The translations under genes were made by a program, and so were the position numbers. The notes beneath the pieces were generated by a model, which saw nothing but the letters and a program-made list of their open reading frames with translations, was not told the origin of the DNA and did no database searches. From IMG/VR virus record IMGVR_UViG_3300025159_000005, positions 1 through 50,155 of that record: a DNA stretch of 50,155 nt. One strand, given 5' to 3'. This document shows positions 10,972-38,723 of this stretch, piece after piece. Position 1 is the stretch's first letter. Each line of letters opens with the position of its first letter. This DNA is from a virus.

Positions 10972-10981
10972 GGGAGGAGAT

Positions 10982-11551
10982 ATGAGACTGTTCGAGGTTA
11001 GCAAAAAGTATGGAATCACCTGCGGCAACCACACGGTAAGGCCGGCATCCGCCGCCACCTGCGGTGTCCTGCATCAAACCGGTGGGTCCACTGCGGAAGG
11101 GGCCGCCAGCTACCTTAGCACGCGCCCAGACGGTAGCGTTCACTGCATCGTCGACAACACGAAGGCATTCATGACCGCGCCCATTCGCAAAGCCGCTTGC
11201 GGCGTTCGAGATGTCAACTACTGGACTTGGCATGTCGAGCAGGCTGGTCCATTCAGCTGGAATATCAAGGACTGGAAGAAGAACGTTGCTACCATCCGCC
11301 GGGCTGCTTGGCACATGGCTAGGTTCCTAGTTCGCCAGGACCTGCCGCGACGGTTCCTCTCGACGACCGACCTTAACCAAGGGGCACGTCGCGGATGGAC
11401 AGTTCACTCCGCGCTGAGCTACTCGACCGTCTCGAGCTCGACTCACGTTGACCCTGTTCACTACCCGCTCCCACTGTTTAAGTTCTACCTGCGTCGATTC
11501 TACCGCCGATTCGAGCGTAATGGAGTGCCGCATCTTAAGGTGGTGAGCTAG
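10982..11551 (+). CDS. Endolysin: N-acetylmuramoyl-L-alanine amidase (Amidase_2 fold)
   Basis: Product of 189 aa, SD GGGAGGAG. It cleaves the amide between muramic acid and L-Ala in peptidoglycan. Visible family features are the first zinc ligand H31 in LHQTGG, the HVEQAG signature at 84-89 (the usual HIEQAG), H142 in the region equivalent to the family 'gHrd' ligand, and a D157-containing THVDPVHYP at the position of the C-terminal 'kxDPGxxfP' motif. The final ~30 residues are basic and aromatic and may bind the wall. There is no signal peptide, so export depends on a holin; two small membrane-protein genes follow with overlapping starts. Confidence 0.87.
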   Translation: MRLFEVSKKYGITCGNHTVRPASAATCGVLHQTGGSTAEGAASYLSTRPDGSVHCIVDNTKAFMTAPIRKAACGVRDVNYWTWHVEQAGPFSWNIKDWKKNVATIRRAAWHMARFLVRQDLPRRFLSTTDLNQGARRGWTVHSALSYSTVSSSTHVDPVHYPLPLFKFYLRRFYRRFERNGVPHLKVVS

Positions 11552-17296: not shown

Positions 17297-17674
17297 GTGA
17301 CGAATAAGCCGAAGCGTAAAGGTACTGACGGAGAACGAGAGGTCCTTTCTCGACTTCGTACCGCTGGCCGTACAGTTGGCACTATGTGGCATCGTACAGC
17401 GGCTGGAACACCGTGGGACATTGACAACGGCGTACCGTTCGAAACTAACTGGAACCCAGGATTCTTTTTGCTGGCAACGCGCGATGACCGCGGTACCTGG
17501 CTGGTAACTCTCGAACTTGAGGAGCTTCTTGAGCTCATAGATTATGAGGTGGTAGCTGAGTCTCCGGTTCAGGTTGAGGTAAAGAGACGTAAGAAGTTTG
17601 CGCTACATAGCCTATATCGCCAAGAAAAGGGGACAGTTGATGCGTACAACGAAGCCGACCCTAGCTCAGCTTAG
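17297..17674 (+). CDS. Nuclease-like protein (possible Holliday-junction resolvase type)
   Basis: Product of 125 aa from a GTG after AGGGAGG. It begins KGTDGEREVLSRLR, like the N-terminal Glu-bearing helix of Hjc/VRR-type PD-(D/E)XK resolvases, and has PFETNWNPGFFLLA and the basic strand VQVEVKRRKKFALH that could be the E-x-K element. The catalytic pattern is not complete by eye, so it may be a non-catalytic relative. First gene of the replication unit. Its 3' end overlaps the primase start region. Confidence 0.55.
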   Translation: MTNKPKRKGTDGEREVLSRLRTAGRTVGTMWHRTAAGTPWDIDNGVPFETNWNPGFFLLATRDDRGTWLVTLELEELLELIDYEVVAESPVQVEVKRRKKFALHSLYRQEKGTVDAYNEADPSSA

Positions 17675-18731
17675 GTCGCTCATCGGGAACCCCGAGGTTT
17701 ATGCTGTTCAGCGAGCCGACGGCGGGTGGTTTCCCGTTAAAGAAAAGCTGGGTGTTGGAATTTTAGCCCAACACCTCGCGGGCGAACTTACGGCGGGTAC
17801 CTACATAGTGCGGCCGCCCGACCAGGCCCGAACACTGGTTTTCGACGTGGACCACAAAGATAAGGATGAGGCTGAGAAGATACTGAACAGCGTTACGCAG
17901 GTTATTGATAAGGTCGGTCTTGAGTACGGTGTGGAATTTTCGGGGCGTAAGGGCTATCATGTTTGGGTCATTGCCAAAGAGTACCTCTCGGCGGCCGTTT
18001 TGTACCGGCTCGGACGCGGCATCCGCGACGAGGCCGGCATTTCAGCCTTGGAGGTTTTTCCGAAGCAGGTTGAAGTGCGGGACTTAGGCAACCTAGTAAA
18101 GCTGCCCGGAGGGATACATCAGGTTACACAAAAGCACAACGACTTCATTGACAATTTTCCGGTACGCAACTCGGTAGAGAAGCTGTTTGCTGCGGCTGAA
18201 CTATACCCAGAGATTGTGGTTCGGTCCCGCCGTCGAGGAGACCCGGCTGGCATCGAGTACCCCTGTGTTTATGCGCTGCAAGAGGGGGCACCCGAAGGCG
18301 GACGGAACGTTCACATGTTCCACCTGGCAACCATGCTTCGGAAGTTCAGCCTAAACGACGAGCACGTCGAGGCCATTATGCGGGCGACCAACGAGAGGTC
18401 GGACCCGCCGTTGCCCGATGAGGAGCTCGACGGCATCATCGAGAACAGCCGGTGGGCCGGTCCGGTGTGTGACCAGCTGAACCCAGAGGTTCACTGTGGT
18501 GAACAGTGCATTAAGGCAAAGCATCCAGGACTCTACACCCGAGACGGCGCTGCTCGATGGGCAGCTGACGGCGAAGAGTTCGTGGTCACGGTACGTGAGC
18601 GAGCGGACGACGGCCGCGTCCTAGAGCTAGAACACCCGGACTTCGTACAGGCTCGAGCGGTGTTGGTTGAGCCAAAGGGTAAGTCGAAGCGTTGGTGGGA
18701 GCGAGAGAAGGATGATGGAACCGAAGGATAA
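17640..18731 (+). CDS. AEP-type primase (archaeo-eukaryotic primase fold)
   Basis: Product of 363 aa; the ATG at 17640 follows a purine-rich SD and removes an unlikely extension from 17598. LVFDVDHKD (residues ~66-74) gives the metal-binding D-x-D, EFSGRKGYHVW (~99-109) is the family nucleotide-binding loop, and LEVFPKQ plus GNLVKLPGGIHQ match the later AEP motifs. Residues ~275-300 have HCGEQC that may bind zinc. It should make primers for the family A polymerase encoded 3 kb downstream. Some relatives are primase-polymerases. Confidence 0.82.
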   Translation: MRTTKPTLAQLRSLIGNPEVYAVQRADGGWFPVKEKLGVGILAQHLAGELTAGTYIVRPPDQARTLVFDVDHKDKDEAEKILNSVTQVIDKVGLEYGVEFSGRKGYHVWVIAKEYLSAAVLYRLGRGIRDEAGISALEVFPKQVEVRDLGNLVKLPGGIHQVTQKHNDFIDNFPVRNSVEKLFAAAELYPEIVVRSRRRGDPAGIEYPCVYALQEGAPEGGRNVHMFHLATMLRKFSLNDEHVEAIMRATNERSDPPLPDEELDGIIENSRWAGPVCDQLNPEVHCGEQCIKAKHPGLYTRDGAARWAADGEEFVVTVRERADDGRVLELEHPDFVQARAVLVEPKGKSKRWWEREKDDGTEG

Positions 18732-19387: not shown

Positions 19388-20344
19388 ATGCCGATAATCG
19401 GATTTGTGGACCCCTCACACTATGAGAGGTCGCATGCAAAGGCTGGGCGCCTACCGAACTGGTATTCGGTAGACGACCTAATTGAGCGTTCGCTCGACCC
19501 CAACCCAAAATGGTCGCCGTGGACCTACGAGCTAGTCAAGGCGGTGCTGGAAGAAACGCAGGACATCAAGGGACGCGGCGACCGCATCAGCGCTACGACG
19601 TTGACAGCACCATGTCCGCGCGCTGAGATACTGAAGCGCAAGGTGGACTTTATCGCCAGCCTTGACGACCTGTATCGAGCACTACGCGGTACGATGATTC
19701 ACCGTACGCTCGAACGGTATACTCGAGCGACGGGCATCGCCGAGGCAACCCTAGTGACGACAGTTGATGGTATCCGGCTGAGCGGCAGTCCGGACCTGCT
19801 AACCCCGGACGTTGTATATGATTACAAGACGACCGACAATCCTCCGCCGTTCGGCTACCCGTACCGACACCACACCGAACAGGTGCAGCTGTACGCCTTC
19901 ATCGCAAGGCATGTCGAAGAGTGGTCAACTTGGGACACGGGGGAGAAAGTGCCGAACGGGAAGCTGCCCTTTGACCCCCGAACTTCGCCGGTTAAGCGCG
20001 CGGTTGTTGCCTACCTTGGGCCGAAAGGACCAAAACTCATTGAGGTCCAACGCAAGGAAGAGATGGTGACCCCAACCGGTGCTGTTCGAGAAGCTAAGCG
20101 GCCGTATATCTGGGACGATGAGCGGATACTAGAAGAGTTTCGTCCGAAGCTCTACATGGTGAAGCAAGCGCTTGAGGTCTACCCGGACTGGCCGGCGGGA
20201 GCGGAAGAGCTGTGGGGTGGACCACCCGGCTGGAAATGTCCCGGCCCGCCGCTCTGTAACTTGCCCGACTGTCTCGCTCGTCGAGACCCTAGCATGTATG
20301 CGTGGGAGAAACCCGAACCGCCGAAGCGAGGGAGGAAACGATGA
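19388..20344 (+). CDS. Cas4/RecB-like PD-(D/E)XK exonuclease with Fe-S cysteines
   Basis: Product of 318 aa. The nuclease elements are RGTMIHRTLE (100-109, with the conserved His), GSPDLLT (133-139, the metal-binding Asp), DYKTT (145-149, D-x-K), and the helix HTEQVQLYAF (~162-171) with the Gln motif. One Cys lies early in TAPCPR (C76) and three late in KCPGPPLCNLPDC (~280-293), the arrangement of AddB/Cas4-type 4Fe-4S nucleases. It probably processes DNA ends in phage replication or recombination. It is followed directly by the HExxH gene. Confidence 0.87.
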   Translation: MPIIGFVDPSHYERSHAKAGRLPNWYSVDDLIERSLDPNPKWSPWTYELVKAVLEETQDIKGRGDRISATTLTAPCPRAEILKRKVDFIASLDDLYRALRGTMIHRTLERYTRATGIAEATLVTTVDGIRLSGSPDLLTPDVVYDYKTTDNPPPFGYPYRHHTEQVQLYAFIARHVEEWSTWDTGEKVPNGKLPFDPRTSPVKRAVVAYLGPKGPKLIEVQRKEEMVTPTGAVREAKRPYIWDDERILEEFRPKLYMVKQALEVYPDWPAGAEELWGGPPGWKCPGPPLCNLPDCLARRDPSMYAWEKPEPPKRGRKR

Positions 20345-20777: not shown

Positions 20778-22693
20778 CGACGCTCTTCATGGACATCGAG
20801 ACCGTTGGCGAGCCGTGGGACGGCAAGTTACTGCTCTTTGGCTGGGCCCGCGACGATGATAATGCTTGGTCGTGGCGCGGCCCCATACTTGACCACGACC
20901 ACGAGCGGATGCTTGAAGACCCCAACATTACTAAGGTCGCACATACTACATTTGACTGGCGTTGGCTACGTCTTACCGGCTACGACATAGCTGGTCCACT
21001 TCACGACACGCGAGTCATGGCGCACTTGCTGAATGAGAATACTCCGCTCGACCTGGATTGGTTAACTCACCGGTACGCCGGCGTTACGAAGGATAAACGA
21101 ATTCATAAGAGCGGTGGAGTGCTCTACTTCTCCTGTGACTACGGGACACGTCATCGACTCGACGAGTTTCCCGAGGGGTCGTGGACGCCAAAGGCTGTTC
21201 AAGAGCTTGAGGCCTACTGTCGCAACGACGTCGTTTCGTTGCGCTCGTTGTACGACGAGTTGAAGCAGCGGCTGCAGGAGAGTGAGTGGTGGGACTACTT
21301 CGAAGAGGAGTCGGTGCCGTACACGTCAGTTCTCGTGGACATGGAATGTGCTGGCATGCCCGTCGACCTCGACATGACCGCTGTTCTAGCAACTGAGGTC
21401 CATGAGGAGAAGGTACGCCTCGGTCAGGAGTTGATGGACGAGGCCAAGTTGCCGGGGTCGTTCAACCTGAACAGCGGGGACCAGCTGGCGACCTACCTGT
21501 TCAGTCGTAGCTTTCGGTTACGAGACCGGCTGCCGATGGACCTGGACCCATTACCCCCTGACCGAGACTTTGAGGTGACTAAGGTCGGACGGCTTTACAT
21601 CGAGGGCGAGTGGATACTTAAGGGTCGAGGGCTGGCGGCGACTCCGCCACCGAAGGACAAGGTCACGGGCAAGGAAGGCAAGCGGCCGTCCACTTCGACA
21701 CCGGAGCTACTGTATATGCACGCCGGCGACGAGTGGGTACGTAAGCTATGTCTTGAATATCGAAAGCGAGAGAAGTTGCTAACGACGTATCTCGAGAAGT
21801 TTCCCCGCATCGTGCACAAGGGTCGCGTGTACGGACGGTACAACCAGGCGGGCACTGTAACCGGCCGGCTCTCTTCGTCTGAGCCCAACATGCAAAACAT
21901 GCCGGCGCGGGGAGAGCTCGGTAAGAAGACGCGCGCTCTATTCCGCGGGAACTTAGTTATCGGGGACTACGACCAGCTTGAGATGCGGTTGATGGCGCAC
22001 TTCTCGCTTGACCCCCGGCTGGTTAAGGTGTTTCAACTCGGCCGAGACCCGCATCTCATTACGGCACAGGCCATCTTCGGGGAGAACGTGGACCCAGACG
22101 GAGAGGAGAGAGGAATCGGGAAGACCCTGAACTTTGCCATCGGTTACGGCGCAGGGCCAAGGAAGGTGGCGCAGGTGCTCAGCCTAAGTGGTTACCCGAC
22201 CACAAGGGACGTAGCTGAGGGCTACCTAGCAGAGCTGCACGGGTTCTACCGGGGCTACTACCGCTGGAAGGACCAGGTCATTGCTAAGGCGAAGCGGTCC
22301 GGTAACGTGCGCACTATCGGCGGTCGTCGTCGCCGCTTACGTGGCGCGTTTCAGGACGTAGCAAACTGGCGGGCGATGGGATACGGCGAACGACAGGCGG
22401 TCAACGCCGTCATTCAGGGCAGCGCTGCCGACATACTGCAGCGAGTGATGGTGACCGGCCGGTGGCAGGACGAGATGCTACTGCTCGCGCAGGTACACGA
22501 CGAACTGGTGTGGGAGTGGGTCGCTGACTATCTGCCGTCCGACGAGCAGCTCGCATACGTGGGGAAGGTAGCGCAGACGGCACATAACTTTGTTCTTAGC
22601 GTACCGCTAGTCTTCGAGCCGCACCACGTTCACTCGTGGGCGGAGAAGGATGGACCTGAGATAGAGTGGGAGGATGATGATGATGAGGTATAG
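20774..22693 (+). CDS. polA: Family A DNA polymerase with 3'-5' exonuclease
   Basis: Product of 639 aa from a GTG overlapping the previous stop. The exonuclease domain comes first, with FMDIETVGEPW (Exo I D-x-E, residues 5-15), THFDW-like AHTTFDW (Exo II) and YCRNDV (Exo III, near 150). The polymerase domain has motif A GDYDQLEMRL (~398-407), motif B KTLNFAIGYG (~455-464) and motif C QVHDELVW (~577-584). There is no 5'-3' exonuclease domain, as in many phages. It replicates the genome with the AEP primase and DnaB-like helicase. Confidence 0.95.
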   Translation: MTTLFMDIETVGEPWDGKLLLFGWARDDDNAWSWRGPILDHDHERMLEDPNITKVAHTTFDWRWLRLTGYDIAGPLHDTRVMAHLLNENTPLDLDWLTHRYAGVTKDKRIHKSGGVLYFSCDYGTRHRLDEFPEGSWTPKAVQELEAYCRNDVVSLRSLYDELKQRLQESEWWDYFEEESVPYTSVLVDMECAGMPVDLDMTAVLATEVHEEKVRLGQELMDEAKLPGSFNLNSGDQLATYLFSRSFRLRDRLPMDLDPLPPDRDFEVTKVGRLYIEGEWILKGRGLAATPPPKDKVTGKEGKRPSTSTPELLYMHAGDEWVRKLCLEYRKREKLLTTYLEKFPRIVHKGRVYGRYNQAGTVTGRLSSSEPNMQNMPARGELGKKTRALFRGNLVIGDYDQLEMRLMAHFSLDPRLVKVFQLGRDPHLITAQAIFGENVDPDGEERGIGKTLNFAIGYGAGPRKVAQVLSLSGYPTTRDVAEGYLAELHGFYRGYYRWKDQVIAKAKRSGNVRTIGGRRRRLRGAFQDVANWRAMGYGERQAVNAVIQGSAADILQRVMVTGRWQDEMLLLAQVHDELVWEWVADYLPSDEQLAYVGKVAQTAHNFVLSVPLVFEPHHVHSWAEKDGPEIEWEDDDDEV

Positions 22694-23994: not shown

Positions 23995-24066
23995 TCCCGA
24001 GCCCCGGATTCGAACCGGGCCCTAGCGGACCACAACCGCTCGTGCTACCAACTACACCAGCCGGGC
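23995..24066 (-). tRNA. tRNA-His-like (anticodon GTG)
   Basis: Reading leftwards there is a canonical D-arm with T8, A14 and G18G19 (GTGTAGTTGGTAGCAC), an anticodon arm AGCGG/CCGCT with loop TTGTGGT (anticodon GTG, His), and a T-arm CCCGG-TTCGAAT-CCGGG. The acceptor stem (5' GCCCGGC, 3' GCTCGGG) has mismatches at 1-72 and 4-69, and no G-1/C73 His identity pair is obvious. There is no encoded CCA. It directly follows, with no spacer, the CCA of the RNA at 24067. It could be a degenerate or conditionally folding tRNA. Confidence 0.7.
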
Positions 24067-25775: not shown

Positions 25776-26624
25776 TCACCTCCCTAACCATCCAGAATCA
25801 AAGTCACTGCGCTGCTGCAGCTTCCACTCATTCATTAGTTCGACCACTTCTGGCGAGGCCCACCTTCGCAGACCTTGGTAGTCGTTCTGCATCTGTGTCT
25901 CTAGCACTTTCGTTAGGCCGTCAACTTCGTATACCTTATCGAACACGGCTCCAAAATTATGCTCAAGCGTGAAGCATCGGTCTACGAAAGATGTATCAGT
26001 ACCTCGCCCTATCAGTCGCAACTTGTACACGCTTGCGACTGCGGCCCAGCGGGGTCCGCCGACTTCGCCGCTAGACCAGCGGTCGCCGTCTCCGAAGAGG
26101 CGCTGAGCCCAGTCAACCCACTTGACGAGAGTCTCTCGGGGCTGTTCACGTCGCAGCCGCGTCCACTCACGCCACGCGAGGCTTCGGTCGCCGTTAGTAG
26201 CCCGGACTGACTGCCAGTAGCTCGCTAGACTGGCCGGGAGTTCACCCCTAAAGACGTGGACGGCGTGCCGTAGCTCGCCGCCCACCGCCATATCGAGGTA
26301 CGTCTCAAACTCGACCGCCAGCTCGCGCGTCAACTGGTCGAACCGCCTTCGCGCTGGGTCGTATTGTTGCGCCTGCGCCAACCATTCCAACAAGTACCAG
26401 TCGGCGCAGTCCTGCCGCAAGTCTCGGTCGGGCTTCATACCAAGGCTGCGGAAGAAGTTAACGTCGTCCTTTCCGGTACCCGAATCTATGGTGTCGTCCG
26501 ACCCCGGGTGCTCGAGGAGCCGGGCGTTGTGGACCGCCGGGTGCTTGACGTGGCGCCATCTGTCTTGCGTTTCGTCTAGGTAGATGGTGCCGCCACAGTC
26601 GAGGCACCTAACGTCGTCGTTCAC
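25776..26624 (-). CDS. Paralogue 1 of a two-member unknown family
   Basis: Product of 282 aa. It starts with a zinc ribbon (CLDCGGTIYL), then a helical N-domain (DLRQDCADWYLLEWLAQAQQ, GELRHAV) and a C-domain with SFVDRCFTLEHNFGAVFDKV and WASPEVVELMNEW. Those elements recur in order in the gene at 28458-29390. I recognise the FVDxxxxLxHNxGxxxDK segment from uncharacterised actinophage proteins; its function is unknown. It lacks the acidic Cys-rich insertion that its paralogue carries. Confidence 0.75.
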   Translation of the reverse strand: MNDDVRCLDCGGTIYLDETQDRWRHVKHPAVHNARLLEHPGSDDTIDSGTGKDDVNFFRSLGMKPDRDLRQDCADWYLLEWLAQAQQYDPARRRFDQLTRELAVEFETYLDMAVGGELRHAVHVFRGELPASLASYWQSVRATNGDRSLAWREWTRLRREQPRETLVKWVDWAQRLFGDGDRWSSGEVGGPRWAAVASVYKLRLIGRGTDTSFVDRCFTLEHNFGAVFDKVYEVDGLTKVLETQMQNDYQGLRRWASPEVVELMNEWKLQQRSDFDSGWLGR

Positions 26625-27922: not shown

Positions 27923-27949
27923 CACCTCCCTTCGGTGTCTGAGTCTAAG

Positions 27950-28022
27950 CTGAGGTGGCAGGATTCGAACCTGCAACCACCGGATTAACAGTCCGGCGCT
28001 CTACCAGTTGAGCTACACCTCA
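27950..28022 (-). tRNA. tRNA-Asn (anticodon GTT)
   Basis: Complete cloverleaf read leftwards: acceptor TGAGGTG/CACCTCA, D-arm TAGCTCAACTGGTAGAGC, anticodon stem CCGGA/TCCGG with loop CTGTTAA (anticodon GTT), T-arm GCAGG-TTCGAAT-CCTGC, discriminator G. No CCA is encoded. Confidence 0.95.
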
Positions 28023-28083: not shown

Positions 28084-28461
28084 TCACACCGTCGGCATCG
28101 GCGGTAATTCGCCGAGCCGCTCTTTCGGTCTCCGTCGGTCGGGAGAGTAGAACTCCGAGGCATGCGTTCGGTTCCACGTCCGCCGGTCAAGCTTGTCTAG
28201 GTATTCTTCCAACCACCATTCATAGCTACCATCCGGTAGTTCTACGTGGTACGCAGCTACCTTGTGGTTACTTGAACGACAAACTGTCCGTCCCGTCAGT
28301 CGTACAGAGTGCCACGTATCTAGGCTATCCAACCACCTGAAAGCCCGTCGCCCCACGTATCGGAGCTTGGGGTAGAGTGGACTCGCATGAGCCATTGTCC
28401 ATTTTCCCGTATGAGGCCAGTTGTCGTGCTTATCTGCTTTCCAGCGTAGCGTCTTAATCAC
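28084..28461 (-). CDS. Hypothetical protein downstream of paralogue 2
   Basis: Product of 125 aa from the GTG at 28461, which has AGGAG upstream and overlaps the previous stop by GTGA; a longer start at 28482 is less likely. It has a Trp-rich N-terminus and a beta-type core with GRTVCRSSNHKVAAYHVELP, then a basic Pro-rich end. Trp-rich segments (YEWWLEEYL) suggest a small nucleic-acid- or ligand-binding domain. No family recognised. Confidence 0.6.
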   Translation of the reverse strand: MIKTLRWKADKHDNWPHTGKWTMAHASPLYPKLRYVGRRAFRWLDSLDTWHSVRLTGRTVCRSSNHKVAAYHVELPDGSYEWWLEEYLDKLDRRTWNRTHASEFYSPDRRRPKERLGELPPMPTV

Positions 28462-29390
28462 GTCGGTTGTACTCCTATCCACTCAATACTACGGCCCATC
28501 CCTAACGCACGGCCTACGGGCCGCATAGCAGCGTTCCACAACGCTTGCACTTCTGGACTGGCGTAACCTACCAGTTTCCAGTACAAATCATCAGCCTGCC
28601 AAACTAGCAGCTTTGCCAGTCGGTTACAGTCTTCGTCGTCGTACATCTTATCGAAAATGCACCCGTTGTTATGCTCTAAGGACCAGCACATGTCTACAAA
28701 GGTCCGGGCCTTTAGCTGGCCCGTCAGGTAATCATGGGCCAGTTCAGCCGCGGTTGCCCATCCATCGCCGCCGTATCCGCCGTTAACAAGTATGTTACGG
28801 AACACATACTCTGCGTCCTTCAAGATGCTAGGACCCTCTTGTTTCAGTACCTTATTCCAAGCCGCCCACGCTTCGCCGCGATAGACAGCCTCGCCGCGTG
28901 CCCAACCGCACCGTTCCAGCATGTCACGAATGGACGCTGGAACCTGTTCGTCAAGCATGCGTCCCTGGGCGCTTTCACAGTCCCAGGTCTCGTACTCGCC
29001 GCACCCTGACTCGGACGACGCATCGCACTTGTACGTGACGTGGTGGCAGTTCGTCCACCCTACGTCACCACAATTGTCGGCATCGTAGTCCGGACTATCT
29101 TCCTCCGGACACTCTGCCACGTCGTTTTCACAAGGGTCGTCGTCGTCGTGCGATGGAATCCAACAGTCGTCGCATCCATAGCATTCGTAATCGTCGTCGC
29201 CCGTACCTGTAACGTAACGGGCTTCGCCGCCTACGACGACGGAGAGGTACTCAGAGAACTCGCGGGCCAGCTCGCCTTCAAGCTGCTCCAACATGCTCCC
29301 GGCGTGTTCGTGGCCGTTAGCCTCTAGCCTCTCCAACAAGTGAAAGTCCGAGCAAGCGCGGCTTAGGTCGCGCTCGCCTAGGTTGTCCAT
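28458..29390 (-). CDS. Paralogue 2 with acidic Cys-rich insertion
   Basis: Product of 310 aa. The start (MDNLGERDLSRACSDFHLL), the EGELAREFSEYLSVVVGGEA segment and the C-terminal FVDMCWSLEHNNGCIFDKM/GYASPEVQALWN match the gene at 25776-26624. Between these, residues ~70-145 hold an Asp/Glu-rich, Cys-rich insertion (ECYGCDDC, CENDVAECPEED, CGDVGWTNCHH, KCDASSESGCG), with more than ten Cys, likely binding several metal ions. Function unknown. Confidence 0.75.
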   Translation of the reverse strand: MDNLGERDLSRACSDFHLLERLEANGHEHAGSMLEQLEGELAREFSEYLSVVVGGEARYVTGTGDDDYECYGCDDCWIPSHDDDDPCENDVAECPEEDSPDYDADNCGDVGWTNCHHVTYKCDASSESGCGEYETWDCESAQGRMLDEQVPASIRDMLERCGWARGEAVYRGEAWAAWNKVLKQEGPSILKDAEYVFRNILVNGGYGGDGWATAAELAHDYLTGQLKARTFVDMCWSLEHNNGCIFDKMYDDEDCNRLAKLLVWQADDLYWKLVGYASPEVQALWNAAMRPVGRALGMGRSIEWIGVQPT

Positions 29391-29427
29391 AGCTTACGTT
29401 CTCACCCCCCGTCCACCTTCCGTAGGG

Positions 29428-29509
29428 TGGGTGGCCCAGGATTCGAACCTGGTCAGCCAACGCCTCGCCGGGGTTGCGGCCCGGTCGCGCTTCCAAACGC
29501 ACACCACCC
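29428..29509 (-). tRNA. Atypical class-II-like tRNA, anticodon GCA (Cys)
   Basis: 82 nt: acceptor GGGTGGT/GCCACCC, a short D-stem GCG/CGC, anticodon stem CCGGG/CCCGG with loop CCGCAAC (positions 34-36 GCA, Cys), a 15-nt variable region and T-arm CCAGG-TTCGAAT-CCTGG. Position 33 is C instead of the near-universal T, and a long variable region is typical of Leu, Ser and Tyr tRNAs, not Cys. The identity is therefore uncertain. Confidence 0.7.
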
Positions 29510-31354: not shown

Positions 31355-31558
31355 GTGCAAAACGAATGTTCGGTAGAGGACCGGCCAGTTAGGCGTCAGG
31401 TTCATCGATTTTCTGAAACCGCTCTTGACGACCCCGATTCTGTCTTTTGCGCTTGTGGGGGCTGGACCCTGAAGCTGTGGGACCCGCGCGTAAAGGGCCG
31501 TGACTGGGGCTGGGTTGTAGAGGGTGCGGCAGAGGGTAGAGTCTACGATGCCGTTTAA
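31355..31558 (+). CDS. First late gene, small protein with Cys pair
   Basis: Product of 67 aa, GTG start with GGGAGGA upstream. It contains SVFCACGGWTLKLWDP, a single CxC, and ends in acidic residues. No family recognised. It is the first gene of the late transcript and overlaps the next by 11 bases. Confidence 0.6.
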   Translation: MQNECSVEDRPVRRQVHRFSETALDDPDSVFCACGGWTLKLWDPRVKGRDWGWVVEGAAEGRVYDAV

Positions 31559-31868
31559 CCCGGAGACCGGAACGGCGGCCGGGGAGGCCAGCGGTAGGGC
31601 CAGACGTCGCAAGGCTCTGGCTCCAGAGGACCGCGCTCTTGAGGCCATAGCCAACAGACTGCCAGCTCTCGCTGACGAGCTGCTCGATGCCGCCTTCGGG
31701 AAGGGGGCCTTTGAGGCCCTGAAACCCGAGACGCGGTTGCAGGCCGTAGTACGGGCGCTTGAGTGGCGGCTAGGGAAGCCGAGCTCACGTCTGAAGGAGG
31801 TTGACACGAACGAACAGCCGTTGCCAACCCCTGATGAGCTGTTTAGAACTTCTGACACGCAGGGCTAG
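31548..31868 (+). CDS. Candidate terminase small subunit
   Basis: Product of 106 aa from the ATG at 31548. It begins PFNPETGTAAGEASGRARRRK, an N-terminus I associate with small proteins lying before terminase large subunits in phages, then an Ala/Leu-rich helical core and a Pro-rich acidic tail. It is about 1.1 kb upstream of TerL, with only tiny genes between. HTH is not certain. A role as DNA recognition subunit is inferred from position and composition. Confidence 0.5.
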   Translation: MPFNPETGTAAGEASGRARRRKALAPEDRALEAIANRLPALADELLDAAFGKGAFEALKPETRLQAVVRALEWRLGKPSSRLKEVDTNEQPLPTPDELFRTSDTQG

Positions 31869-31966: not shown

Positions 31967-31980
31967 GCCTCTAGAGAGGC
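31967..31980 (+). promoter_or_regulatory. Hairpin covering the Pup SD
   Basis: GCCTCT-AG-AGAGGC is an inverted repeat whose right arm contains the AGAGAGG SD of the Pup-like gene (start 31986). Folded, it would hide the SD. The ~117-base gap before Pup is also unusually long for this operon. Confidence 0.45.
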
Positions 31981-31985
31981 AACCC

Positions 31986-32177
31986 GTGAAACGCGAGCGG
32001 GCACAGAAGGAAAAGGCCAAGACGACTCGTAAGGTCGCTGTGGACGAGAAGCTGGAGAGGGTGGACACCACGGCGGTCAAGAACGAGCTGGACGAGCTGC
32101 TGGAGGCGATAGACTCCGTCCTGGAGAAGAACGCCGCCGAGTTCGTGCAGGACTACGTTCAGCTGGGTGGAGAATAG
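31986..32177 (+). CDS. pup: Pup homologue (prokaryotic ubiquitin-like protein)
   Basis: Product of 63 aa, GTG start. The C-terminal half reads ELDELLEAIDSVLEKNAA then EFVQDYVQLGGE. This is the Pup signature: an amphipathic helix with DxxLxExIDxVLExNA, then F-V-x-x-Y-V-Q-x-GG-E. It already ends in Gly-Gly-Glu, the form ligated by PafA without deamidation by Dop. The N-terminal half is Lys/Arg-rich (KRERAQKEKAKTTRK), whereas host Pup is mainly acidic. No Dop, PafA, Mpa or proteasome subunit is encoded, so it would use host enzymes. It lies between the TerS-like gene and a run of tiny genes. The fold call is strong, the role is inference. Confidence 0.88.
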   Translation: MKRERAQKEKAKTTRKVAVDEKLERVDTTAVKNELDELLEAIDSVLEKNAAEFVQDYVQLGGE

Positions 32178-32305
32178 TGGCCGACCACGGCAAGGGTAAG
32201 TGTGCCGTTGACCCCTGTCCAAAGCATGGTCCCGTTAAGAAGGGCAAGGGCATGGGTAAGGGCGGCAGCGGCGGGGGCCACGCCGGTCTCGGACAGGGGG
32301 CGTAG
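32177..32305 (+). CDS. 42-aa Lys/Gly-rich Cys/His protein
   Basis: A 42-aa ORF from a GTG overlapping the Pup stop by one base. KCAVDPCPKHG could bind a metal, and the rest is Lys/Gly-rich (KKGKGMGKGGSGGG). High Lys content in a gene coupled to Pup is notable but does not show that it is a substrate. Confidence 0.55.
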   Translation: MADHGKGKCAVDPCPKHGPVKKGKGMGKGGSGGGHAGLGQGA

Positions 32306-32462: not shown

Positions 32463-32569
32463 AGACTGGGGTCCTGTACGTGACGTGCCCGAAGTGCCGT
32501 AGGCCAACGCCTGCGGTGCCACTAGGGCGCGACCTGGAGTGTGAGCACTGTGCCGATTCGAAAGGTTAA
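32459..32569 (+). CDS. 36-aa zinc ribbon
   Basis: A 36-aa ORF with CPKC and CEHC separated by about 15 residues, a complete zinc-ribbon pattern. GTGA overlap with the previous gene. Function unknown. Confidence 0.6.
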   Translation: MKTGVLYVTCPKCRRPTPAVPLGRDLECEHCADSKG

Positions 32570-32690
32570 GGGCGGCTATAAGTGGGGCAGCCAGGGCAAG
32601 GTGTACAAGACTCGTAAGGGCGCTGCCAAGCAGGCGCGAGCCGCATATGCCCACGGTTACCGCGGCGCCGGCAAAAAGCGAGGAACGTGA
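32550..32690 (+). CDS. 46-aa basic conserved phage peptide
   Basis: A 46-aa ORF (VPIRKVKGGYKWGSQGKVYK...). The pattern GGYxWGxxGKVY...A...QxRAAYAxGYR is one I recognise from small phage proteins of unknown function. It overlaps the zinc-ribbon ORF by 20 bases and the next gene by four. Confidence 0.7.
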   Translation: MPIRKVKGGYKWGSQGKVYKTRKGAAKQARAAYAHGYRGAGKKRGT

Positions 32691-32956
32691 CGAAACGCTG
32701 GTCACCGGAGACGTGTCCTAGGTGCGGTAGGCTGTTGCCTGGTGCGCGCTGGGAGACGTGCTTCTGCTGGCGCACGAGAGGAAGCGGTCTTGATGACTTT
32801 ACTCGACAAGAGCTGGCGACTCTTCGTCTACGCCTTGAGGGACCTGGAAGAGGTCGTAAGACTCGCCGTATGCCACGTCCGGGGACATCAGGAACCTCAG
32901 CTGTTAGTCGAGGAGAATACGTACCTGAGACTAGTGTGTCCGCGGTGCGGGCGTGA
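32687..32956 (+). CDS. Zinc-ribbon ORF, overlapping frame
   Basis: Product of 89 aa whose GTG overlaps the preceding stop by four bases and whose TGA overlaps the TerL GTG by four. The first ~35 residues (ETCPRCGRLL, ETCFCWRTRG) look real. The remainder is Arg/Pro/Gly-rich and overlaps another ORF (32793) in a different frame that looks more protein-like. A frameshift joining the two is possible. Confidence 0.5.
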   Translation: MTKRWSPETCPRCGRLLPGARWETCFCWRTRGSGLDDFTRQELATLRLRLEGPGRGRKTRRMPRPGTSGTSAVSRGEYVPETSVSAVRA

Positions 32957-32963
32957 GCTCTAG
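32793..32963 (+). CDS. Alternative-frame protein with C-terminal zinc pair
   Basis: A 56-aa ORF (MTLLDKSWRLFVYALRDLEE...) with CHVRGH and a terminal LVCPRCGREL, which resembles small phage proteins that end in a CxxCG pair. It is entirely out of frame with the 32687 ORF across 164 bases and overlaps the TerL start by 11. SD GAGAGG is 11 bases upstream. Confidence 0.5.
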   Translation: MTLLDKSWRLFVYALRDLEEVVRLAVCHVRGHQEPQLLVEENTYLRLVCPRCGREL

Positions 32964-34437
32964 GGCCTATGGGCAGCTCGAGCTCAACCCTGGTGCTCAG
33001 GAGGCGTTCGTTCACAACGAACACCTCTACTCCGCGTACATCGGTGGTGTGGGAAGTGGTAAGACCTATGCCGGCTTCGCTCGCGCCCTTAAGTACGCGA
33101 TGCAGACTAAGCCAGAAGGTCAGTTTCACGGCCCACGAGTTACGGTGGCGGCTGCAACGTATCCGCTTCTCATGGACGCAGTGGTACCGCCGGCACAGGA
33201 AATCCTGGCGCTAACAGGCGTCGCAGACTGGGACAAGTCCTTTAAGAAGCAGAAGAAGGAGCTGCACCTCCCCAACGGCGGCACCATCCTCTTCCGCTCT
33301 CTAGACGACCCTGACACCGTGATGCGTGGTCCTGAACTTGCCGGGGTGTTCATCGACGAGGGCCGTAATGTCTCGCTGTACCACTGGAAGCTGGTCACCG
33401 GCCGGCTTCGTCAGAAGGGCTACAAGCGCGCGGCTTGGGTTTGCTCGACGCCTAACGGCCACGACTGGATGTGGTCGGTCTTTCACCCAGATTCTGTGGA
33501 CGTGTGGGACGACACTGACTGGTTTGGTGCGCCAACACACGAGAACAAGCACCTTCCGCCTGAGTACGTTAAGGCGCTGGAGGACTCCTGGGAGGGACGC
33601 TTCTACGAGCAGGAGGTCCTCGGCCGCTTCGTTGGAGTGGTTGAAGGCGGTGTGTTCCCGTACTGGGACCCAGAGACGTTCGTCTCGCCCAACCTAAAGT
33701 ACAGGACTGACCTACCCCTGTACACGTTCTGGGATTTCGGCTACGGAGACCTAGGTGTGTGCGTGTTCGCGCAGGTCGAGTGGAAGGAAAGGTCAGATGC
33801 CTCACAGAAACGGGGAGGAGCCAAGGTCAAGGTTCCTTGGCTCTACGTGCTCGACGTCATCGCTGCAAAAGAGTGGGCGGCTGTGGACTGGGCTCGAGCC
33901 TGGAAGTCCAAGCTCGCAGAGTCCTTTGACGGAGCTCGTCCCCTGGGCAACTTCGGGGACCCGGCTGGTCACCAACGTAACCCGTCGACTGGAACGTCAG
34001 TCATAAGTGACTTGAATTCTGCAGGTGTGCCGGTTACGGCGGCGCCTAAGCGGCCGCAGGACTACGCCATCCGCATCCTGAATAACATGATGGCGGGAGA
34101 AAGAGTCTGGGTTCGAACTCCAAACGCAGACCAGGTTGCACAGGCATTCGCGTCTCATAAGTGGAACGTCGACCGAAACGGCATTCGCATCGGCAACACG
34201 GCCGTTCATGACTGGACCTCACACTTCGTTGATGCCGTGCGTTATGGAACTGCCGTTGTGCTAGGATTGTATGCACGCGAGGACGAATCTGAGACGCCGA
34301 GCGAGCTGCTGACACCAGATACTTACGGTCATGTCTTTGACCAGCTGTTGAACCCGCCGGCCAAGAAGTGGCTCGGGCCAAAGCGCAAGGCTGTTCGACC
34401 TACGTTCGAGGCCCCACCAATCGTACCTAGGAGCTAG
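32953..34437 (+). CDS. terL: Terminase large subunit
   Basis: Product of 494 aa. The ATPase domain has Walker A GGVGSGKT (31-38) and Walker B GVFIDEG (~131-137). The nuclease domain has WDFGYGD (~258-264, first metal Asp), GNFGDPAG (~333-340) and HDWTSHFVDAVRYG (~418-431). It cleaves and packages concatemers into the procapsid. It is GTG-started, coupled to the preceding ORF, and followed two bases later by the portal. Confidence 0.95.
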   Translation: MSSRAYGQLELNPGAQEAFVHNEHLYSAYIGGVGSGKTYAGFARALKYAMQTKPEGQFHGPRVTVAAATYPLLMDAVVPPAQEILALTGVADWDKSFKKQKKELHLPNGGTILFRSLDDPDTVMRGPELAGVFIDEGRNVSLYHWKLVTGRLRQKGYKRAAWVCSTPNGHDWMWSVFHPDSVDVWDDTDWFGAPTHENKHLPPEYVKALEDSWEGRFYEQEVLGRFVGVVEGGVFPYWDPETFVSPNLKYRTDLPLYTFWDFGYGDLGVCVFAQVEWKERSDASQKRGGAKVKVPWLYVLDVIAAKEWAAVDWARAWKSKLAESFDGARPLGNFGDPAGHQRNPSTGTSVISDLNSAGVPVTAAPKRPQDYAIRILNNMMAGERVWVRTPNADQVAQAFASHKWNVDRNGIRIGNTAVHDWTSHFVDAVRYGTAVVLGLYAREDESETPSELLTPDTYGHVFDQLLNPPAKKWLGPKRKAVRPTFEAPPIVPRS

Positions 34438-34438
34438 T

Positions 34439-36301
34439 ATGCCTATAGATACGTTTCGCGTCTACTCCGATGAGGAGTCGATGCTCAAAGTCTATAGTCG
34501 GCGATTGACGTCGGCGGACCAGCTCTTTGCGAAGACGAAAGCCGAGCGTGAGGCGTTTGTTGCTCGCTACGCCAACGAGGTAGAGGAAGACCAGGTAACC
34601 GAAGAGGGTCACCGGGTCAACGTTACTAACGGCATCGGCATCATCGATACGATGTTTGCTTCGATGACTGCAGTTGATGTAGAGTTCATCGCTAAGGCGG
34701 TTGGCAACGGTACGCCCGAGCAAGCGGTAGCTGCCACGAGTGCGCTAAACCAAAGCTGGCACGACACGAAGGGCGCGCGTAGGGCTAAGAAGGCCGTCAA
34801 GGACGCGCTCCTCGTCGACCTCGGAGTCGTGAAGGTTTATTACGACTACGTGACCGACGTGGAGGTTCGAGACCGCCCCGACGCAGCCGTCAAGGCCGAA
34901 CTTACCGAGGTGGTCAAGAACGGCGACCAACGGACAATCGATGACATTCTCGCCTCGGGCGAAATAGCGTTGGTCGAGGATGTTGAGGTCGTGCTACGCG
35001 ACCGCGTATGCGTTGATTATGTTCCCTGGAACATGGTCCGTTATGACCCCAGCGCCAATCAGGCTGAAGATGTTCGATGGGTGGCACAGTACACGCGGCA
35101 CCCGACGCCCGAGGTTACCCTGAATCCGACTTTTCGCGCCTTCGTCCAAGACCGCTATGGCAAGGTCGTCGGTGACCGGCTGCTAAACGGCTTGGAGGGC
35201 GACTCCACCATCGACGCGGTAGGAATCGCAGGAGACTACAGCGACGTTGAGGGCCTCTCGAAAGACGAGAAGGAGGATTCCGTTCGCGTAACCCTCGTCG
35301 AGATGTGGGACTTTGAGACCGGCCTGGTGACCGTCTTTCCCCGCAATCGTACCGACCTGGTGCTGCATCAGCGGGTCAACCCCCTGATGCTAAACCTAGA
35401 CCTCGAAGACCGCTCCCCGTTCAAGTTCCTAGGCGTGCGCTGGCTGCCGGGCCGCTTTGAGGGTGTCGGCGACATGCGCGTTATCCGGCCGTCCCTAGAC
35501 GAACTGGACGAGTATCGTAGCAACCTAGCGACGCACATTGCACGTACTATCCCGAAGCTCATCGGACCGGCTAGGGCGCTCTCACCGGCCGGCAAGAAGG
35601 CTCTGGAGTCGACCACCTGGGGCGAGTATGTCCCGCTGGAGGAGGAGCACGTTGCCAGCGAGGTGCAGCCGCTAGTGCCCCCACCGCTGCCGCAGGAGAC
35701 CTTCGAGGTTCCTGAGAAGATTCAGGCCGAGATGAAGGAGGCTACTGGTGCTAACGAAGTCCTTCGTGGTGTCTTCCCATCCCGTCGTACGACCGCGACC
35801 GAAACGCAGCTCGTCACGTCGGCCGGTCAGAACCGTCAGGCTGAAAGACGGGCGGCTCTAGAGGAGTGGTACACCGACGTCGCTCGTACCATGCTGCAGC
35901 TAATGCAGGTGTACTACGACCGTGACCGCATACTTCGCTACACGAACGACCTTGGTGAGGAGTTTGTATGGGAGTGGAACCGCGAGGATATAGCGATGGA
36001 TGCGGACATTCGCATCTCGCTGACTCCGCGCGAGAACCTAACCCGCGAGGAGACGTTCCAGAGGTGGCTGCAGGTAATGAACCTAGCGGTGGCGATGCCC
36101 GAAACTGACCGAAACGAGCTAATGAGGCAGGTCTATCGCGCCATCGGCCTACGCGAGGACGAGATTCGGGGACTCATCAAGACTCCCGAAGAGGTTGAAG
36201 CTGAAAGACAGCGTGAAATGGTCTCGACGCAGCTTGCTGCTGCGCCGCAGCCCGCGTCCAGCTCCCCACCGGGTCTTAGTATTTCGCCTGCCAGAAGCTA
36301 G
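34439..36301 (+). CDS. Portal protein
   Basis: Product of 620 aa. Helix-rich N-terminal wing (VYSDEESMLKVYSRRLTSAD), a beta core with RVCVDYVPWNMVRYDP, and the C-terminal clip/stem region LATHIARTIPKLIGP and RTTATETQLVTSAGQNRQAE typical of podovirus-type portals. It forms the ring for DNA entry and tail attachment. Position directly after TerL supports the call. Confidence 0.85.
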   Translation: MPIDTFRVYSDEESMLKVYSRRLTSADQLFAKTKAEREAFVARYANEVEEDQVTEEGHRVNVTNGIGIIDTMFASMTAVDVEFIAKAVGNGTPEQAVAATSALNQSWHDTKGARRAKKAVKDALLVDLGVVKVYYDYVTDVEVRDRPDAAVKAELTEVVKNGDQRTIDDILASGEIALVEDVEVVLRDRVCVDYVPWNMVRYDPSANQAEDVRWVAQYTRHPTPEVTLNPTFRAFVQDRYGKVVGDRLLNGLEGDSTIDAVGIAGDYSDVEGLSKDEKEDSVRVTLVEMWDFETGLVTVFPRNRTDLVLHQRVNPLMLNLDLEDRSPFKFLGVRWLPGRFEGVGDMRVIRPSLDELDEYRSNLATHIARTIPKLIGPARALSPAGKKALESTTWGEYVPLEEEHVASEVQPLVPPPLPQETFEVPEKIQAEMKEATGANEVLRGVFPSRRTTATETQLVTSAGQNRQAERRAALEEWYTDVARTMLQLMQVYYDRDRILRYTNDLGEEFVWEWNREDIAMDADIRISLTPRENLTREETFQRWLQVMNLAVAMPETDRNELMRQVYRAIGLREDEIRGLIKTPEEVEAERQREMVSTQLAAAPQPASSSPPGLSISPARS

Positions 36302-36543: not shown

Positions 36544-36614
36544 GCACCGCTAGCGTAGAGGAAACGCACCTGGCTTCCACCCAGGAGTCGTCGGTCCGAG
36601 TCCGACGCGGTGCT
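36544..36614 (+). tRNA. tRNA-Gly (anticodon TCC)
   Basis: Full cloverleaf: acceptor GCACCGC/GCGGTGC, D-stem GCG/CGC, anticodon stem CCTGG/CCAGG with loop CTTCCAC (TCC, Gly), T-arm GTCGG-TCCGAGT-CCGAC, discriminator T. It is embedded in the late operon, five bases after the previous stop. It would decode GGA/GGG, which are frequent in the Gly-rich fibre. Confidence 0.93.
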
Positions 36615-36680
36615 CTGTCGAGGCCCTAGCCACAGCGCAACGGCGCCGAGGGCGAGGGGTACAACGAAGGGAGGCTTGCC

Positions 36681-37652
36681 ATGGCACAGAGCCGTGACGA
36701 GCTTAAGGCTCAGCAGCAAGTTGAGCTGAGGACCGCCCTAGCGGAGGCGGTTGAGAAGTATCCGTTGACAGCCGAAGCAGAAGACGAGGAAGACTGGAAC
36801 AGGTGGGAGGCCGAAGGAGGCCAGCCGCCCGAGACCGTTCCCGACCCCGAAACTTCGACGCCCGATAAGCCTGCTCCGGGCGAGGCTCCGCCTAGTACAG
36901 TCGAGGCTACCAGCAAGGAAGAAGTTTCATCCGAGGGTGAAACCACAGATGAATCTCCTACCGAGTACTGGGGCGTAGATTTGAACGGCCTTCCGAGCGA
37001 GAAGCGAGCGGAAGTTATCGCTCATTTTGAGCAGCAGGATAGTACCATCCGGAAGCTCCAGGAACGACTGGCGAAGAAGCCAGAAGAGCAGCCGGCACCG
37101 GAACCTGAGACGCAGGGGCCGGTCAGCGATGAGGACATCATGCGTGCCCTCGGCTTGGACCCCGAATCTCTCGAGTACGAGCAGCTGGCGCCGGTGGTTC
37201 TACCGCTCGCCAAGACCGTGATGAAGCTGGAGGAAACCGTCGATGAGATGTCTCAGCGCGAGACGACCCGTGCGGTTGAAAGCGCCTGGAACACGACACT
37301 CGACGACCTAGAATCGACGTACGGCAAGCTGCCGTTCGAGCGGGTTCAGGTCCTTCAGTACGCGATTGAGGAGGGCATTCCGTCTCCCGAGGCCGTCTAC
37401 TTCCGTCTTACCGCCCCTGCAAAGCGCGAGGTGGAGGAGGCAGTAGCCAAGGCCCGTCTCGAAGCGTCGAAGAGGGAAGCTTCGGCAGGTCCGAAGCCGA
37501 GCTCCTCGTCCGGGACCTCTGTCGGCGTAAAGGCCGGCATGAGTCTACGAGACGCGGTCGCGGTCGCAGCGAAGGAAGCGGAAAAAGAGACCAAGCTCCG
37601 CTGGCGCGATGCCATTAAGGGTCGTCGCATAGCTGTTCCGGAGAACGAGTAA
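36681..37652 (+). CDS. Scaffolding protein
   Basis: Product of 323 aa, SD AAGGGAGG. Very acidic and Pro-rich N-half (TEYWGVDLNGLPSEKRAE follows), central helical region with coiled coil, and a C-terminal basic helix (KLRWRDAIKGRR) typical of scaffolds that contact the capsid protein. Position between portal and major capsid protein supports the call. Confidence 0.8.
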   Translation: MAQSRDELKAQQQVELRTALAEAVEKYPLTAEAEDEEDWNRWEAEGGQPPETVPDPETSTPDKPAPGEAPPSTVEATSKEEVSSEGETTDESPTEYWGVDLNGLPSEKRAEVIAHFEQQDSTIRKLQERLAKKPEEQPAPEPETQGPVSDEDIMRALGLDPESLEYEQLAPVVLPLAKTVMKLEETVDEMSQRETTRAVESAWNTTLDDLESTYGKLPFERVQVLQYAIEEGIPSPEAVYFRLTAPAKREVEEAVAKARLEASKREASAGPKPSSSSGTSVGVKAGMSLRDAVAVAAKEAEKETKLRWRDAIKGRRIAVPENE

Positions 37653-37673: not shown

Positions 37674-38723
37674 ATGTCCATTTACGCCGACCAGTTTGAT
37701 GTTCTGGTCACGACTACGCTGGACAAGGTCCGGCCGGTTCTGACTGACCAGATATCAAACGAAAATGTGTTGCTTGCGTGGCTCAATATGAAGGCACGCA
37801 TCAACGTTGACGGCGGGACAGTCATCCGGCGACCTCTCATGTTCGCGTTCAACGACACGGTGGGTTCGTACTCTGGTTACGACCTCCTTGACGTGACGCC
37901 GCAGGAAGGTCTTGGCTGGGTTGAGTACGAGTGGCGCCAGCACGCTGGCTCTGTGACCATTTCGGGAGAAGAGGTCAAGAAGAACAGCGGTTCGGCTCAG
38001 CTTGTCAACCTGCTTCAGGCCAAGATGGACCAGCTCAAGCTGTCCATCGCGGACGACTTTAACGCCATGCTCTACGGTTCCGGCAACGGAAACGGCGCTA
38101 AGGACTTCATCGGTTTGATGGGGATTGTCTCAGACGGAAAGCAGTATGGGTCCTCGGACACCGGCGCTGCCCTCCCGACGGGCGCCTCGACGACCGATAC
38201 TCACCTCGGTGGCATTAGTGCCACAACGTACACCTGGTGGAGGTCGAACCTAGTCACGTCCCCCGTGGACCTGACCACGTTTGACGGAGTCGATAGCCTG
38301 AACAACCTCTATAACAGCATTCGCGTTGACCGCTCCAAGGTTGACCTGGAGCTGACCACGCAGGCGAACTTCGAAGCGTACGAGGCCCTCGCGGTCCCGA
38401 ATATCCGCTTCCAGTCGCTGCGCGCGGCCGACCTGGGGTTCGAGACCATCGCGCACAAGACGGCTGAGGTCGTCTTCGACCCCGACGTTCCCACGTCGGG
38501 TGCGTGGCACGATGGTCTGAACACCGTGGCCGGTGGAGGGGCTTGGTTCATGTTGAATGCCGACCGCCTGGAGTTCGTGCAGCACGCGGATTCCTGGCTC
38601 TCGCCGACCGAGTTCGTTCGGCCGTATAACCAGGACGCCAAGACGGCCCTGGTGTTGTCGATGGGTAACCTGATTACGGACTCGCGCCGTAGCCACGGGC
38701 TCATCCTCAATACCGTCGTCTAG
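37674..38723 (+). CDS. Major capsid protein
   Basis: Product of 349 aa. SIYADQFDVLVTTTLDKVRP at the start and GGTVIRRPLMFAFNDTVG, with later helices and beta elements (YSGYDLLDVTP, EVEWRQ-like WVEYEWRQ). Length and position after the scaffold match HK97-fold capsid proteins of podoviruses. An unusually stable hairpin lies just after the stop. Confidence 0.88.
   Translation: MSIYADQFDVLVTTTLDKVRPVLTDQISNENVLLAWLNMKARINVDGGTVIRRPLMFAFNDTVGSYSGYDLLDVTPQEGLGWVEYEWRQHAGSVTISGEEVKKNSGSAQLVNLLQAKMDQLKLSIADDFNAMLYGSGNGNGAKDFIGLMGIVSDGKQYGSSDTGAALPTGASTTDTHLGGISATTYTWWRSNLVTSPVDLTTFDGVDSLNNLYNSIRVDRSKVDLELTTQANFEAYEALAVPNIRFQSLRAADLGFETIAHKTAEVVFDPDVPTSGAWHDGLNTVAGGGAWFMLNADRLEFVQHADSWLSPTEFVRPYNQDAKTALVLSMGNLITDSRRSHGLILNTVV

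Follow-up and report, generated by a model that had tools for sequence, protein, structure and literature searches.

Baculoviruses encode a ubiquitin of their own, v-ubi, yet no machinery for its conjugation. The Bil system of bacteria is a ubiquitin-like conjugation pathway directed against phage tails. The phage gene described here resembles v-ubi in that the virus has a modifier without conjugation machinery, and it resembles Bil in that protein tagging is placed at the phage–bacterium interface. Baculoviruses are eukaryotic viruses and v-ubi is a beta-grasp ubiquitin, with which Pup shares neither sequence nor fold nor enzymes. The Bil modifier, also of the beta-grasp fold, is encoded by the host together with enzymes of its own, whereas here it is the phage that carries the modifier, namely Pup.

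In the pupylation pathway PafA ligates Pup ending in glutamate (Pup-Glu) to lysines, whereas Pup-Gln requires Dop first (PMC8223512). Both PafA and Dop bind the two C-terminal Pup helices (PMC8599861). At Mpa the disordered N-terminus of the Mycobacterium tuberculosis (Mtb) protein threads into the pore, with residues 21-51 helical on Mpa (PMC8755798), and E42 is among the residues that show NMR signal broadening upon Mpa binding (PMC3769308). K61 is the acceptor for di-Pup and IdeR chains, and K7 and K31 serve PafA chains (PMC4783102). Free Pup is unstable and seldom seen, and in M. tuberculosis Pup-Glu without Dop recycling fails to restore the pupylome (PMC5358908); in starvation depupylation is required to maintain Pup levels (PMC12288473). 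Members of the family have 50-90 residues and end in a G[EQ] motif (Iyer et al., PMC2588565). Free Pup is disordered and becomes helical on Mpa, PafA or Dop, and PafA ligates it by way of the side chain of the terminal Glu.

A phage gene encodes Pup

The DNA analysed (the window) comprises the 50,155 bases of a virus record and has a GC content of 59.3%. Its pup gene lies on the plus strand at 31986-32177 and encodes a 63-residue protein, MKRERAQKEKAKTTRKVAVDEKLERVDTTAVKNELDELLEAIDSVLEKNAAEFVQDYVQLGGE, that has a GTG start and the C-terminus ...YVQLGGE followed by a TAG stop (32175-32177), exactly as the original prediction had placed it. A Shine-Dalgarno-like AGAGAGG (31973-31979, plus strand) stands 6 nt ahead of the GTG, no alternative start lies upstream within the open frame, and the coding score of the gene is high for its length within the window. 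The proposed homology to Pup was borne out by the Pfam model PF05639, which matched with 50.9 bits (E 2.9e-13) against a curated cut-off of 27 bits; residues 5-63 align with model positions 11-69 of 69, thus reaching the final position. An independent search of the whole record also recovered this match, and the only related solved structures found by phmmer in the PDB were Pup chains and a PafA–Pup fusion. Length and GGE terminus agree with the family definition, and the core residues I43, D44, V46, L47, E48, N50, A51, F54, V55, Q60, G62 and G63 (Mtb numbering) are all present. AlphaFold2 predicted two helices (residues 2-25 and 29-59, mean pLDDT 88), although a model made from a single sequence is weak evidence. 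Judged by its sequence, the ORF at 31986-32177 is a genuine Pup.

With actinobacterial Pup (M. tuberculosis Rv2111c; PDB 3M91, 3M9D and 7PX9) the window protein shares the PF05639 family, the length, the PafA/Dop-binding core and the GG[E/Q] end and, as far as the prediction goes, the Mpa helix. Unlike it, the window protein is phage-encoded without PafA, Dop or proteasome and has a basic N-terminus. PHROGs contains no family matching the window Pup, so phage annotation based on PHROGs would miss such genes.

The pup gene lies among head genes without its pathway partners

Direct terminal repeats of 99 bp at the two ends mark the window as a complete circularised phage genome. It encodes a terminase, an SU10/P22-type portal, a major capsid protein, an endolysin, a family A DNA polymerase, a DnaB-like helicase, an AEP-type primase, a dNMP kinase and a deoxyribosyltransferase. 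The primase (17640-18731) belongs to the AEP-TOTE type (PF22548) and contains a PriCT-1 domain, and a PD-(D/E)XK nuclease gene (19388-20344) lies near it. Two further genes, 25776-26624 and 28458-29390 (minus strand), are apparent paralogues, both assigned to phrog_20946, a family of unknown function. Four phage tRNAs (His, Asn, Cys and Gly; 23995-24065, 27949-28022, 29426-29509 and 36544-36615) are also present, one of them within the head-gene operon.

All neighbours of pup considered here are on the plus strand. Upstream is a 106-aa ORF (31548-31868) that lacks a family match and by its position is probably the small terminase; homologues 42% identical to it precede Pup in two relatives, L128 and L138. 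Downstream are a 42-aa Gly/Lys-rich ORF (32177-32305) and a 49-aa basic ORF (32541-32690; phrog_31267), which L148 and L155 have conserved in this location as well. Next come, in keeping with the packaging operon of the original prediction, the terminase large subunit, TerL (32953-34437; PF03237, phrog_2), and the SU10/P22-type portal protein (34439-36301; PF23899, PF16510, phrog_156), followed by a 323-aa ORF (36681-37652) that lacks a family match and is by position before the capsid gene a probable scaffold, and by the major capsid protein (37674-38723; phrog_9953, E 2.3e-58). The description of a tightly packed operon held on one side only: pup shares one base of its stop with the GTG that follows, whereas a gap of 117 nt separates it from the terminase-small-like ORF upstream. 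Gene position suggests that pup would be expressed late; neither a promoter of the sigma-70-type consensus nor an intrinsic-terminator consensus was found near it.

As the original prediction had stated, the window contains neither a PafA/Dop-type ligase or depupylase (PF03136) nor a proteasome subunit (PF00227), and the phage protein would thus depend on host enzymes. The same holds more widely, as PF03136 was found in none of 47 Pup-bearing virus records (window included) and proteasome subunits in none of the 23 tested. Bacterial loci differ, with Dop and/or PafA beside Pup in 79 of 80. In a complete Pup-proteasome system pup is linked to pafA/dop and usually to mpa and proteasome genes, an arrangement that the window lacks. 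The host is probably a bacterium with PafA. Portal relatives of the window were absent from 28 Pup-bearing genomes and were found, as remote matches only, in one of 396 genomes of the sampled phylum; terminase, polymerase, portal and capsid relatives among isolates were likewise only remote and came from mixed hosts.

A proposed consumable for the host pathway

Carriage of Pup without any other pathway gene is what would be expected if a phage gained from the consumable alone. Host PafA, Dop, Mpa and the 20S proteasome would act catalytically and persist, whereas Pup would be consumed with the tagged proteins. A phage that stops host expression would therefore exhaust the pathway unless it brings its own Pup. 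Host PafA would ligate the phage protein to lysines, and Pup made together with the packaging genes would keep or raise pupylation late in infection. The proteins degraded could be those of the host, whether as a source of amino acids or as obstacles to the phage, or phage proteins that have served their purpose. We give roughly even weight, on sequence grounds, to the reading that phage Pup is the consumable of the pathway, supplied to sustain or redirect proteasomal degradation through host PafA. Ligation by host PafA is itself quite probable, whereas the direction of the effect, a supply or boost of pupylation, is about evenly poised. A Pup that stands alone, is under selection and keeps a ligatable end fits the supply of a consumable to host enzymes. 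The instability of free Pup, the failure of Pup-Glu to restore the pupylome without Dop recycling (PMC5358908) and the need for depupylation in starvation (PMC12288473) also speak for this reading.

That end was compared between 24 phage lineage representatives and 80 bacterial Pups. Of the 24, 23 retain a terminal Gly-Gly-[Glu/Gln], among them the most diverged member of the window's clade (L155, ...KYRQHGGE); this end matters for ligation. The exact terminal residue is another matter. The original prediction had seen the C-terminal Glu as a means of bypassing Dop, but GGE is equally common in hosts (40/80 versus 14/24 phage lineages, p 0.5). Moreover, the Pup proteins of L128 (5866-6060, GGQ) and of L137 (2092-2286) and L138 (4786-4980; both GGE) differ only at the last residue. 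On the host comparison and this polymorphism together, GGE was rejected as a special phage adaptation. The L128 versus L137/L138 difference is a natural switch, within one phage population, between a Pup that depends on Dop and one that does not.

Several phage Pups depart from host Pups at nearly invariant positions

Plain replenishment would not predict the changes at positions 42, 56 and 61 that are seen in the window and in several other phage Pups. At position 56, 12/24 phage lineages have neither K nor R (1/80 hosts); position 61 lacks K in 7/24 (hosts 2/80) and position 42 lacks E in 7/23 (hosts 1/80), where the 80 bacterial Pups are those closest to the query, the patterns used to retrieve them partly constrain positions 42 and 56, the phage Pups were retrieved with other patterns, and the phage lineages are phylogenetically non-independent. 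The window Pup does not keep E42, R/K56 or K61, which are nearly invariant in hosts. Its phage-type residues are A42, K49, A52, Q56 and L61; the host residues at these positions are E, E in most cases, E, R/K and K, respectively. These lie in the part of the protein that comprises the two-helix PafA/Dop-binding core and the GGE end (codons 36-63, 32091-32174, plus strand), with the binding mode taken from PMC8599861.

The N-terminal segment (codons 1-29, 31986-32072, plus strand) is basic, as had been predicted, with a net charge of +4 versus -7 to +3 in the 80 host Pups. Six Pups of the window's clade range from 0 to +9 (host median -4, p 6e-5), and three clade members found later have +7 (L174), 0 (L162) and -1 (L170).

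The combination of a basic threader, which is clade-specific, with the A42 and the lost R56 and K61 of the window Pup means that the fate of the tag may be altered. A phage Pup that is ligated, or that occupies PafA, Dop or Mpa, but is a poor substrate would blunt host pupylation; the variants of this idea are Dop-resistant tags, tags with no extension at position 61 and a clogged Mpa, with phage proteins being protected. In its favour are the loss of host-invariant residues in phage lineages at the three positions counted above, of which K61 is a chain acceptor (PMC4783102) and E42 shows NMR broadening upon Mpa binding (PMC3769308), and the basic charge, in most of the window's clade, of the N-terminus that enters the Mpa pore. 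Some phage Pups, such as those of L015, L018 and L024, are however host-like at 42, 56 and 61, so an altered tag cannot be the general role of phage Pups. A pure decoy would have no need of the ligatable GG[E/Q] end that nearly all phage Pups keep, and most of them also retain the N-terminal threader. We regard this explanation as rather unlikely.

Spread of pup and its position near the terminase

Scans of IMG/VR and of a phage collection, each checked against the Pfam cut-off, gave 45 IMG/VR records besides the window and Streptomyces phage Dagobah with Pup above the PF05639 cut-off (47 in all). When only groups whose contig or record also bears a phage hallmark gene are counted, Pup occurs in at least 10 unrelated phage groups, which suggests repeated borrowing by phages of the host's tag for protein destruction. 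One group (L015, L017, L018, L023 and L025) has a TerL about 36% like that of Rhodococcus phages. The T4-like phages (L012 and L129-L136) have Pup between tail tube and helicase, Dagobah and L013 form another group, and further contexts include L019/L020, L021 (with small terminase, TerL and major capsid protein), L024, L126/L127, L022, L119, L120 and others. Few non-Pup matches cross groups among the matches listed for the first 17 loci, for instance one in TerL (27%) and one in a dCMP deaminase. The Pup relative at L125 59-154 ends in KQQSGQ rather than QKGG[E/Q] and, from its sequence, may have lost ligation. A candidate-phyla-radiation genome, L053 (Candidatus Azambacteria GW2011_GWA2_42_9), has Pup beside Dop/PafA-type genes.

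The Dagobah Pup (HUN42_00036, QMP84414.1; 'ubiquitin-like protein Pup' in GenBank) is like that of the window in its GGE end, in standing alone, in A42 and in having a residue other than Lys at 61 (V in Dagobah). It differs in being of 78 aa with an acidic N-terminal part, in belonging to an unrelated phage, and in lying between endolysin and primase/polymerase genes rather than before the terminase. Dagobah (L005) also encodes an SsgA-family sporulation regulator (21664-22128), another host-like regulator near Pup.

In the window, the L015 group, L019/L020, L021, L024, L126/L127 and L139, Pup lies within about 2.2 kb (0.4-2.2 kb) upstream of TerL on the same strand; with L139 counted under the window's clade, this makes six independent groups. 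Among contigs of at least 15 kb, a TerL-proximal Pup was seen in 5 of 16 lineages (P about 8e-5 from a rough chance of about 0.03 each, a calculation that ignores contig-selection bias).

Relatives of the window were collected by portal and by TerL similarity. Pup is present in ten lineages whose TerL shows at least about 52% identity (window; L128/L137/L138; L115; L139; L148; L152/L153; L155; L162/L163; L170; L174), whereas about 11 lack it (L142, L143/L161, L144, L164, L165, L166, L171, L172, L178, L182 and L183), some of these judged from only about 0.9-1.6 kb of upstream sequence. None was found in about 30 members of the outgroup (TerL 41-48%), some with little upstream sequence. An unrelated short ORF occupies the site of pup in L142, L143 and L144. 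Within the clade Pup is old yet accessory, and its absence from about half of the clade means that it is not essential there. The order small terminase-like ORF, Pup, small ORFs, TerL, portal is common to the window and L128/L138. The capsid proteins of L115 and the window are 89% identical, but in L115 Pup lies between portal and putative scaffold instead. Highly diverged or insertion-bearing clade Pups are those of L155 (1243-1446), L170 (ending near 1926) and L174 (ending near 3353); the features among them are the ...KYRQHGGE end and extra residues between the PafA-binding helices, with the GG[E/Q] end still kept.

These arrangements bear on a possible role in the virion or in packaging, where the basic Pup of the window's clade would act as an assembly factor binding DNA, terminase or scaffold, or would tag the scaffold for removal after assembly. 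Proximity to the large terminase in several lineages, the portal–scaffold location in L115 and N-terminal charges of mostly +4 to +9 in the window's clade would fit such a role. About half of that clade nevertheless packages without Pup, other phages carry Pup near helicase, endolysin or primase genes, and conservation of the PafA-binding end would be needless. The region before the terminase is, moreover, a common site for accessory genes, so that the position of Pup alone does not show a packaging role. We consider this role improbable.

Selection and origin

Pup is under purifying selection in the phage groups that could be tested (dN/dS 0.05-0.33). The L015 group (pairs with estimable dS) gave values of 0.11-0.19, the T4-like group 0.05-0.33 and the Dagobah/L013 pair 0.33; they come from other phage groups, as the close relatives of the window are identical in Pup and the rest are too diverged. 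An L128 pair gave 0.07, a value that rests on five changes. The comparison with host Pups by phylogeny, which the original prediction had proposed, could be made but told little: a tree of 107 Pups over 69 columns had few resolved branches. A single phage origin was found in 0% of bootstrap trees, which show 9-13 label changes, yet just one such change is required by the supported branches, so that phage Pups may still share one origin.

Selection speaks against Pup being a passenger, that is, a host gene recently acquired and of no benefit. The accessory distribution in the window's clade and the host-like sequence of some phage Pups are compatible with a passenger, but dN/dS is well below 1 across large divergence in other phage groups, Pup was kept in about ten clade lineages despite TerL divergence to about 52-57% identity, and the Pup-specific C-terminus was retained; we judge this explanation very improbable. 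The chance that the gene is a contaminating bacterial Pup-proteasome locus or a chance ORF is negligible: although such a mislabelled locus does occur in the phage collection (MT835496.1), the terminal repeats, four other IMG/VR contigs with an identical Pup protein among phage genes (1-4 mismatches over 5-20 kb, none in pup), the E value of 2.9e-13 and a family member in an isolate phage, Dagobah, together refute it. The record MT835496.1 (L006; 'Bacteriophage sp.' from human faeces), with a bacterial Mpa-Dop-Pup-PafA operon at 6850-11543 under a phage label, is probably a mislabelled bacterial contig and was rejected as a source of phage Pup.

Implications

The original prediction knew of no described phage Pup. 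This stood for the literature but not for the databases, as the Dagobah Pup is annotated in GenBank (QMP84414.1) whereas the Dagobah paper (PMC7650747) is silent on it. That annotation is the only earlier notice of a phage-encoded Pup that we found. No text on phage Pup was found in open-access papers, though a subscription paper or preprint may exist, and the word 'phage' is absent from the pupylation reviews PMC8223512 and PMC12288473. It is possible, with somewhat less than even confidence, that phage Pups are widespread, unrecognised modifiers that take over the pupylation–proteasome pathway and that at least one clade, that of the window, has evolved a Pup whose N-terminus is basic and whose contact residues for PafA, Dop and Mpa are changed, so that tagged proteins meet another fate than with host Pup.

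What bacterial pupylation does physiologically is a matter of continuing debate. Should Pup be carried by many phages, then pupylation matters in infection and phages are a natural probe of it, with the proteins that bear phage Pup in infected cells being directly measurable. As Dagobah grows on Streptomyces coelicolor, the role of a phage Pup is testable now. The natural phage variants at positions 42, 56 and 61, in N-terminal charge and in the Glu/Gln end are tools for dissecting recognition by PafA, Dop and Mpa. If true, phage Pup would be the bacterial counterpart of virus-encoded ubiquitin.
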